A stretch of DNA of 64,000 bases, taken from positions 124,001 to 188,000 of the forward strand of contig JAIXWL010000010.1 of assembly GCA_027491315.1 (NCBI GenBank), written 5' to 3'. Below are positions 39,525-42,735 of this stretch, piece by piece. The DNA is from Cytophagaceae bacterium. GTDB lineage: Bacteria; Bacteroidota; Bacteroidia; Cytophagales; Spirosomataceae. The stretch's first letter is position 1. Each line of letters starts with the position of its first letter. The notes under the pieces were generated by a model. It made no database searches. It was not told where the DNA came from and saw only the letters and a program-made list of their open reading frames with translations. The translations under genes and the position numbers were made by a program.

Positions 39525-41972
39525 TTAAGAACCACAGGCCTCACAAGCTTCAGGATTATCTAAAGAACATGTCATATCGGCTCTGTTTTGCGACTCTGCC
39601 TCAGTGAATGAAGCAGCGGATGCGGCTTGCTGTCTGGCATATTGCATTTCAGATTCATGCACGTTATTCGTTTGTTCAATAGCCACCTCTGCCTGTTTTT
39701 CAATGGTAAATTTAATGGCATCTGCAGCGGCTTTGGTACGCAAGTAATACATACCCGTTTTCAAACCTAGCTTCCAAGCGTGGAAGTGCATGGATGTTAA
39801 TTTACCAAAGTTGACATCTTGGATGTGGATGTTCAAACTTTGTGATTGACAGATATAAGCTCCGCGATCTGCAGCCATTTCTAAAATGGTTTTTTGCTTA
39901 ATCTCCCAAACCGTTTTGTAAAGATCTTTCAGGTCTTGAGGAATTTCTGGAATATTTTGAACGGAGCCATTCGCTGAGATTAGCTTGTTCTTCATGCTCT
40001 CATTCCACAATCCTAATTTGATTAAATCCTTTAATAAGTGCTTGTTAACAACCGCAAACTCACCTGACAACACACGACGTGCGTAAATGTTGGAAGTATA
40101 TGGTTCAAAACACTCATTATTACCTAAAATCTGGCTAGTAGATGCCGTTGGCATTGGAGCCACTAACAAGGAATTACGTACTCCGTTTTCTACAACTAGA
40201 CGACGAAGTGTTTCCCAGTCCCAACGACCTGATTCTGGAGTTACACCCCACATATCGAATTGGAAAATACCTTTCGAAATAGGTGAACCTTCCCAAGTAG
40301 AATATGGTCCTTCTACTTTCGCTAGTTCCATAGATGCTTCCATGGATGCGTAGTAAATGGTCTCAAAAATATCTTTATTTAATTGCTTCGCTGCTTCTGA
40401 CTCAAATGGCATACGCAACATGATGAAAACGTCAGCCAATCCTTGTACTCCTAATCCTATTGGACGATGGCGCAAGTTAGAATTTCTTGCTTCTGGAACT
40501 GGATAATAGTTAACATCAATAATCTTATTCAAATTGCGGGTAGCCGCTTTGGTTACTTCGTATAATTTATCGTGATCAAATGCCAAGATACCTTGCTCGT
40601 TCATGCGCACGTACTTAGGCAATGCCAATGAAGCCAAGTTACATACAGCTACTTCGTCTTTGGAAGTATACTCCATGATTTCAGTACATAAGTTGGACGA
40701 CTTAATGGTACCTAAATTCTTTTGGTTCGATTTTTTGTTGGCATGGTCTTTGTACAACATATAAGGTGTACCAGTCTCTGTTTGTGATTCTAATACTTTA
40801 AACCACAATTCTTGTGCTTTTACCACTTGACGGGCTTTGCCTGCTAATTCATATTTTTCATACAATGCCTCGAACTCCTCACCGTAAGCATCTGAAAGAC
40901 CTGGACACTCATGAGGGCAGAACAATGACCATTCGGCATTTTCTTCCACACGCTTCATGAATAAATCTGGAATCCATAGTGCGTAGAATAAATCCCTAGC
41001 ACGCATCTCCTCTTTACCGTGATTTTTCTTTAATTCTAAGAAATCAAATACATCAGCATGCCATGGCTCTAAGTACACAGCAAATGAACCTTTACGTTTT
41101 CCTCCTCCTTGATCTACATAACGTGCGGTATCGTTGAATACACGCAACATCGGGATGATACCATTGGAAGTACCGTTGGTACCTTTGATGTAGGAACCCG
41201 TAGCACGAATATTGTGAATGCTCAAACCAATACCGCCGGCAGATTGAGATATCTTAGCCGTTTGTTTCAATGTATCATAAATACCTTCGATGGAATCATC
41301 TTGCATAGTCAATAAGAAGCAAGATGACATCTGAGGCTTAGGAGTACCCGCATTGAATAGGGTTGGTGTGGCATGTGTGAACCAACGCTCCGATAATAAA
41401 TTATAGGTATCAATAGCTGCAGCGATATCTGCTCCATGAATACCTACCGCCACACGCATCAACATGTGTTGCGGACGTTCAGCGATTTGTCCCTCTAATT
41501 TTAAAAGATAGGATTTCTCTAATGTTTTGAATCCAAAATAATCATAACCAAAATCACGGTCATAGATGATAGCTTCATCTAGCTCGACAGCATTCTTTTT
41601 AATGATATCATAGATTTCTTTAGAAAGAAGGGCTGCATTTTGACCGGTTTTAGGATCAACATACGTATACAAGCGTTTCATCGTAGCCGAAAACGACTTC
41701 AATGTGTTCTTGTGTAAGTTAGAGATCGCGATGCGTGCTGCCAGCACAGCATAGTCTGGATGCTTGGTGGTTAATGAAGCCGCTGTCTCAGCTGCTAGAT
41801 TATCCAACTCGGTGGTCTTAACACCGTCGTAAAGCCCTGTAATCACTTTTCTAGCAACCTCTAGGGGTTGAACAAAAAATGGATCCAAGCTGTAGCAAAG
41901 CTTCTCAATTCTTGCTGTGATTTTATCGAACTTGACAGATTCGCGTCGACCGTCTCTTTTAATTACGTACAT
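39525..41972 (-). CDS. nrdA: Ribonucleoside-diphosphate reductase, alpha subunit (class I)
   Basis: Reduces ribonucleotides to deoxyribonucleotides. The 815-residue protein has an N-terminal ATP-cone regulatory domain (1-90, beginning [11 protein letters not shown]). The conserved cysteine region is intact: MSSCFLLT (about 214-221) and [12 protein letters not shown] with VCNLASLAL (about 430-455), which correspond to E. coli Cys225, Cys439/Glu441 and Cys462. The C-terminal redox pair is in EACEACGS. No intein is seen. nrdB is not adjacent and must lie outside the window. The leader (41973-42160) has inverted repeats and a small ORF. Confidence 0.97.
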
Positions 41973-42008
41973 ACTTTATATATTAGAAAATTAGCGTCTC
42001 AATTATTC

Positions 42009-42118
42009 AGCTTACAACCCTTTTAAAGCACAAAAGATTCCCGCTCTAGAAAATTTCTCATCTAAAATATTCAAGTTTTTATGACTTGAAAAACGGTTGG
42101 CGGTTTTGTTTGTAAGCT
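42009..42118 (-). other. Possible structured nrdA leader (nested inverted repeats)
   Basis: AGCTTACAA (42009-42017) and TTGTAAGCT (42110-42118) are a perfect 9-bp inverted repeat 92 bases apart. Inside it TTCAAGT (42070-42076) and ACTTGAA (42084-42090) form a 7-bp hairpin. If transcribed toward nrdA this would be a stem with a nested hairpin in the 5' UTR. I do not recognise any described RNA family. Confidence 0.35.
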
Positions 42119-42141
42119 TTAACTTCATCCAAGGATTGCAT
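42079..42141 (-). CDS. Possible small ORF in the nrdA leader (20 codons)
   Basis: An ATG at 42139-42141 opens a 20-codon frame beginning MQSLDEVKAYK and ending FFKS. Its codons look like ordinary coding sequence rather than the surrounding AT-rich DNA, and a purine-rich AAGGAG lies just before the ATG, although closer than usual. A second protein-like frame (…HKNLNILDEKFSRAG…, stop at 42012-42014) begins in the overlapping +1 frame, so the two halves together would read as about 43 residues if one base were lost in the T-run at about 42090-42094. It could be a leader peptide, a frameshifted small gene, a decayed remnant, or chance. Confidence 0.3.
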   Translation of the reverse strand: MQSLDEVKAYKQNRQPFFKS

Positions 42142-42372
42142 ACTCCTTGGGGGGTTGGGCACTACGTAAAATTAGAAAAAAAGAACCCCGCTTGCAAACT
42201 ATTTTTTCATCAAAAAAAATAAAAAAAATAGGCTTATTTGAAATGCAACATTCAATTAACCTAATGTCAATTCGTTACGACATTTGCGTCTTTGAAAAGT
42301 ACCAGAAAATATTTTTTAAGATTTTTTTAAGCCTCAAAATATTGGCAAAACACCTAAAAAATTGTTATGCAT
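42142..42372. other. AT-rich non-coding part of the nrdA/rpmE2 divergent region
   Basis: The gap between nrdA and rpmE2 is 517 bp, the only gene-free stretch over 300 bp. Besides the nrdA leader and the rpmE2 promoter, this middle part is very AT-rich with A- and T-runs. The one visible structure is AATGTC/GACATT, a 6-bp inverted repeat around 42263-42284. I see no tRNA, no clear NrdR box and no convincing gene here. Confidence 0.5.
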
Positions 42373-42489: not shown

Positions 42490-42735
42490 ATGAAAAAAGA
42501 CATTCATCCGGAATACAAAGAAGTTGTATTTCACGATTTATCAGCAGATTACAAGTTTTTGACTCGTTCTTGCGTTAATACAACTGAAACAACAGAATTC
42601 GAAGGAGCTACTTATCCTGTATTTAAAATTGAGGTTTCATCTCAATCACACCCTTTTTACACAGGTAAAAACGTGTTATTGGATACTACAGGTCGTGTGG
42701 ATAAATTCAACAAGCGTTACGCTCAGAAAAACTAA
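42490..42735 (+). CDS. rpmE2: 50S ribosomal protein L31, type B
   Basis: An 81-residue ribosomal protein. It begins [16 protein letters not shown] and has the type B features ([35 protein letters not shown]) with no CxxC zinc pair, which marks it as the zinc-independent paralogue. Zinc-free L31 replaces the zinc form under zinc limitation in some bacteria; whether the genome also has a zinc form cannot be seen here. It is followed by its own terminator. Confidence 0.96.

Follow-up and report, generated by a model that had tools for sequence, protein, structure and literature searches.

The nrdA locus and its upstream region

The window, that is, the whole stretch of 64,000 nucleotides that was analyzed, contains nrdA on its minus strand, preceded by a conserved leader and a predicted promoter:

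39525–41972, minus strand: nrdA, ribonucleotide reductase large subunit with an ATP-cone (gene searches)
42015–42162, minus strand: structured leader RNA element of about 150 nt (conservation and covariance model)
42162, minus strand: putative transcription start, the G of GTGCCC (position derived from the numbering of the −7 box in PMC6847099)
42167–42198, minus strand: predicted promoter, with a −33-like TTTG (from 42198), 20 bases and a −7-like TAATTTTA (42174–42167) (sequence)

The promoter predicted upstream of the leader follows the consensus TTTG/TANNTTTG with a T at −12, as given in part of PMC6847099, except that the last G of the consensus is replaced by A. The TAATTTTAC box is present in leaders of the genus with and without the element, and also in L139. 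The nrdA message would thus begin at about 42162, and a stretch of 190 nt leads from this position to the nrdA ATG.

A small divergent gene, which by eye resembles that of ribosomal protein L31 (rpmE), is located upstream of the nrdA promoter (window positions 42490–42735, plus strand). In the genus, the large and the small subunit are each encoded by a single gene, and the two genes are at separate loci (the small subunit was found in 36 of the 38 genomes). In this genome, the nrdB gene (G000:C14:288942-289742) is about 123 kb from nrdA and has its own leader, in contrast to those members of the order that have nrdB directly upstream of nrdA. In the six genomes looked at, a core like that of the nrdA leader was absent from the separate nrdB leaders.

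Predicted structure of the leader RNA

The following parts were recognized within the element, all on the minus strand:

42152–42157: 5′ arm of helix P1, CAACCC, pairing with 42015–42020 (covariation and fold probability)
42129–42150: P2 hairpin, CCAAGGAGTATGCAATCCTTGG (covariation and RNAalifold)
42098–42120: core, AAAGCTTACAAACAAAACCGCCA, the most conserved block, within which the 5′ arms of P3 and P4 are proposed (identity between clades)
42070–42090: P5 hairpin (compensatory changes)
42045–42066: P6 hairpin (84.0% of cells paired in 24 leaders)
42028–42044: 3′ core, GCGGGAATCTTTTGTGC, where the 3′ arms of P4 and P3 are proposed (58–80% mean identity between clades)
42015–42020: 3′ arm of helix P1, GGGTTG (covariation and fold probability)
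42118–42110 and 42017–42009: arms AGCTTACAA and TTGTAAGCT of a 9-bp inverted repeat (sequence)

The letters, repeats and open reading frames (ORFs) described in an earlier note on this DNA are all present on the minus strand. The 9-bp inverted repeat is perfect here, as that note had stated, but is perfect in just one of the six closest species compared. The 7-bp hairpin that it encloses (TTCAAGT at 42090–42084 and ACTTGAA at 42076–42070, with a loop of 7 nt) corresponds to P5 and keeps seven of seven pairs in all six of the closest species; in the six clade-A species this pairing is accompanied by changes from T-A to C-G and from A-T to G-T. Across 24 leaders, 71.7% of the P5 cells are paired, and a different hairpin occupies this position in the other clades.

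The leader folds at −43 kcal/mol, compared to a mean of −33.2 kcal/mol for 200 dinucleotide shuffles, none of which was as good (z −2.5). RNAalifold, when unaided, predicted P2 as the sole helix, and among 24 leaders 96.3% of the P2 cells are paired, with changes on both sides in four of the eight pairs. In P1, 71.4% of the cells are paired and two pairs show changes on both sides; its middle pair occurs as five pair types among the 24 leaders and is unpaired in six of them. Of ten leaders folded, eight gave P1 probabilities of 0.74–0.98 and two, both of clade D, a probability of 0.02. Single-sequence folds showed a common layout in several leaders of clades A, B, and C; P1 was absent from the clade D folds. 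For P4 and P3, 79.2 and 65.9% of the cells, respectively, are paired in the 24 leaders, and their pairs are mostly either invariant or broken. Pairing in the core is therefore weakly supported, and P3 and P4 are drawn here as proposed helices. The pairs of a candidate pseudoknot between a loop and the 3′ core are, by eye, nearly invariant.

The covariance model R1 was trained on 13 leaders, with the 10 leaders of clade D excluded, and its structure was drawn from the fold of L009; taking the structure from the fold of a single sequence favors this structure. R1 scored 150.4 bits at the locus described here, whose own sequence belonged to the training set, and recovered 11 leaders outside that set at 57–121 bits. 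Cells changed on both sides numbered 60, a value that none of 500 shuffles (27.1) attained and that compares with 8–23 in slid structures; the score was 0.267 versus 0.172. As many pairs with double changes were, however, obtained in 73 of 500 shuffles, and as many pair types in 136 of 500.

Further analyses revealed that the core, AAAGC...AACAAAACCGCC (columns 47–71), has a mean identity between clades of 85–95%, compared with 36–45% in the P5 region and 21–48% in the tail, and that fourfold sites of nrdA are 39–54% identical between the same clades (22 genomes). L031 and L032 were too short and were omitted from the comparison of the core with fourfold sites; L035, a short leader picked by a loose pattern, was omitted from all alignments, and L013 and L015 from A4/R2. 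Given that the core is so highly conserved, while the letters of P5 vary with pairing kept, selection acts on the core and on pairing rather than on the letters of P5. The suggestion of regulatory RNA structure in the earlier note is supported in that the leader is conserved and its hairpins stay paired through compensatory changes.

Open reading frames and alternative readings

Two ORFs overlap the element on the minus strand:

42079–42141: ORF of 20 codons whose start lies in the P2 loop (frame listing)
42012–42128: 38-codon ORF without a frameshift (frame listing)

The 20-codon ORF is present as the earlier note described it. Of the six clade-A species, four have a version with 9 codons, and in L006 it is 46 codons long. 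In L006, two one-base insertions yield this 46-codon frame, which runs uninterrupted from the ATG in the P2 loop almost to the end of the element. The 20-codon ORF is probably not a conserved peptide, although the position of its start is kept: of 25 leaders, that of the sister genus among them, 24 have an in-frame ATG (17) or GTG (7) that precedes the CAR codon of the P2 loop by one or two codons. In 20 of 24 leaders an A occupies −3 of this start codon, a base that favors initiation in Flavobacterium johnsoniae according to part of PMC6847099. The leader peptide suggested earlier is not supported as a conserved peptide, the peptides themselves ranging from 6 to 46 codons with differing sequences, but this start-like codon could belong to a very short upstream ORF. 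Of the features of a leader-peptide attenuator, the kept start position was found, whereas a conserved peptide and a terminator after the ORF were not.

The conserved start codon in the P2 loop may reflect either conservation of the RNA or a mini-ORF. In the latter case, ribosomes would start in the P2 loop and, by translating a very short ORF, open or hold the RNA and so couple nrdA to the state of translation. In addition to the recurrent start codon and the A at −3, the clade-A start has moved by one codon yet stayed in frame, and 18 of 24 leaders have a stop close to the core (−2 to +10). However, the peptides are dissimilar, L016 has no start, seven starts are GTG, and the loop bases were possibly kept for RNA reasons, so that we regard such a sensor of translation as rather unlikely.

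Somewhat more doubtful is a purely stabilizing role, in which the hairpins at the 5′ end would shield the message from degradation and have no sensing function. The element does lie at the putative 5′ end, and the letters of P5 change freely as its pairing stays, both of which would suit a stabilizer; the best-conserved part, however, is the unpaired core, which a plain stabilizer would not need.

It is very unlikely that the region is a small protein gene, either intact or decayed. The 38-codon frame of this genome has counterparts of 38–41 codons in three more species, and L006 has its 46-codon frame, but the 38-codon frame is broken in L004 and stopped in L006, and the other clades, by inspection, have no equivalent frame. 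Among the four clade-A species in which it is intact, the counts of variable sites at codon positions 1, 2, and 3 are 6, 7, and 5, and pairs of species differ by 0–2 synonymous versus 6–15 non-synonymous changes. The 38-codon ORF is thus probably not a gene. The earlier note had read a protein-like sequence running to a stop at 42012, which is indeed there, as a +1 continuation of the 20-codon ORF. Because this second reading has its own ATG (42128) and is complete, neither a frameshift nor a sequencing error at the T-run is needed. A small gene with a frameshift is not supported, given this unshifted frame and substitutions that carry no coding signature, and neither is a decayed gene, given the lack of any longer, intact version among the 24 leaders and the sister genus, in a region constrained as RNA. 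Comparison of relatives for conservation of peptide versus stems thus revealed compensatory changes in the P2 and P5 stems and no coding signature, and the interpretation offered in the earlier note is, as a whole, partly supported.

A DNA-level regulatory site downstream of the promoter would fit the sequence conservation taken alone, but is equally improbable given the compensatory pair changes in P2 and P5.

Distribution of the element

The element was found in 24 of the 38 genomes of the genus, probably Aquirufa or the equivalent genus in GTDB, and is present in six named Aquirufa species (A. beregesia, A. antheringensis, A. nivalisilvae, A. ecclesiirivi, A. aurantiipilula, and A. rosea). 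Thirteen others have a short leader without it, and one (G009) gave no large-subunit match. All 18 matches of the core pattern in a collection of named genomes were directly upstream of nrdA, and every copy found is associated with nrdA. The element is nevertheless dispensable, as 13 of the 37 genomes of the genus with nrdA are without it.

When 30 genera of the family were represented by one genome each, only that of the sister genus had a credible match near nrdA. This copy has diverged (24.9 bits, E 0.0023 over 96.5 kb) and occupies the corresponding position, immediately following the TAATTTTAC box. In a tree of nrdA from 31 genomes, the element-less ones (9 of the 13 were included) form one group with a support of 0.993. 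Although the tree is unrooted, loss in this group would be the simplest history given the sister-genus copy. The short-leader members are L019, L021, L023–L028, L030, and L033–L036; some of them contain a GC-poor AAGCAAAAACGCC stretch, which could be a relic of the core.

No credible match outside the two genera was found with R1 in 200 genomes of the family and 291 of the order, or with R2 in 390 genomes of the order and 395 of the phylum; it should be noted that these searches are insensitive to diverged copies, as R1 missed the sister-genus copy in one of them. Five weak model matches elsewhere were rejected as chance-like: none is at nrdA, and their number fits E ≤ 0.01–0.1 over 200–395 genomes. 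They lie beside a GC-rich hairpin between converging frames (L069), within an open frame (L070), at a site without an overlying frame of 80 aa or more (L171), antisense within a gene (L172), and across the junction of two frames (L173). In the 9 of the 13 element-less loci searched, weak matches upstream of the promoter in L027 (16.5 bits) and L019 (10.6 bits) were likewise rejected.

Comparison with known systems

No match to Rfam 15 was found at the gathering threshold, and up to E 5 the only match was snoU61, far below the cut-off; neither the cobalamin nor the purine/2′-dG riboswitch models of Rfam matched. No such nrdA element was found in the open-licence literature on reductase leaders, structured RNA candidates, and NrdR in Bacteroidetes, nor in passages of PMC8040213 and PMC7247131.

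Reductase genes with leader RNAs are already known, as described in parts of PMC12268651 and PMC4991794. Like the 2′-deoxyguanosine riboswitch, which is the leader of a Mesoplasma florum ribonucleotide reductase gene (passages of PMC12268651), the element described here is a structured RNA in the 5′ leader of a gene for ribonucleotide reductase. In the M. florum riboswitch, however, a terminator ends transcription (same passages), whereas here neither a terminator nor an Rfam match was seen. The coenzyme B12 riboswitch of Streptomyces nrdABS (PMC4991794, in part) is also a leader RNA at a class Ia reductase, for which control is proposed here, but our Rfam scans gave no cobalamin match. Nor was a B12-dependent alternative enzyme seen, because the genus has just one large-subunit gene. 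The element further resembles leaders of ribosomal-protein genes in Bacteroidota, for example that of L13 (passages of PMC7247131), in being a lineage-restricted structured leader that may bind a protein. It differs from them in that its gene is nrdA, and the words nrd and ribonucleotide are absent from the main-text part of that source.

The supply of deoxynucleotides must stay balanced, and many bacteria use the repressor NrdR. NrdR was not seen in the genus, where NrdA was the only ATP-cone match in 37 of the 38 genomes and the remaining one had none. The reductase was also the only ATP-cone protein in 31 of 33 order genomes tested; in the other two, a frame of 285 aa gave an additional weak match. 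The missing NrdR therefore does not explain the element, as order genomes without the element share this lack.

Proposed function

The best reading is that the element is a lineage-specific cis-acting leader RNA for nrdA. We consider it likely that the nrdA mRNA carries at its 5′ end a conserved, structured RNA of about 150 nt with a cis-acting effect on nrdA. Its A-rich core may, together with the U-rich 3′ core, provide a center to which a metabolite, protein, or small RNA binds; the translation of nrdA or the stability of its message would then change with the state of this center. The trigger might be a deoxynucleotide-related signal, a guess made from the gene alone. No intrinsic terminator was seen in 41850–42350, which makes transcription attenuation of the terminator type less likely. 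The start region of nrdA is about half unpaired (0.50–0.63) in ten leaders, with no clear sequestration.

As expected of a riboswitch, the leader is conserved and structured and precedes a metabolic gene. A more specific proposal, which we put forward with much reserve, is an orphan riboswitch class that is confined to Aquirufa and its sister genus and that would sense a deoxynucleotide-related metabolite and set nrdA, in a family in which most of the genomes analyzed showed no NrdR.

The stretch before nrdA thus appears to be less a broken small gene than a conserved folded RNA that probably controls the enzyme; as cultured freshwater species carry this compact RNA at nrdA, control of the reductase gene can be tested.
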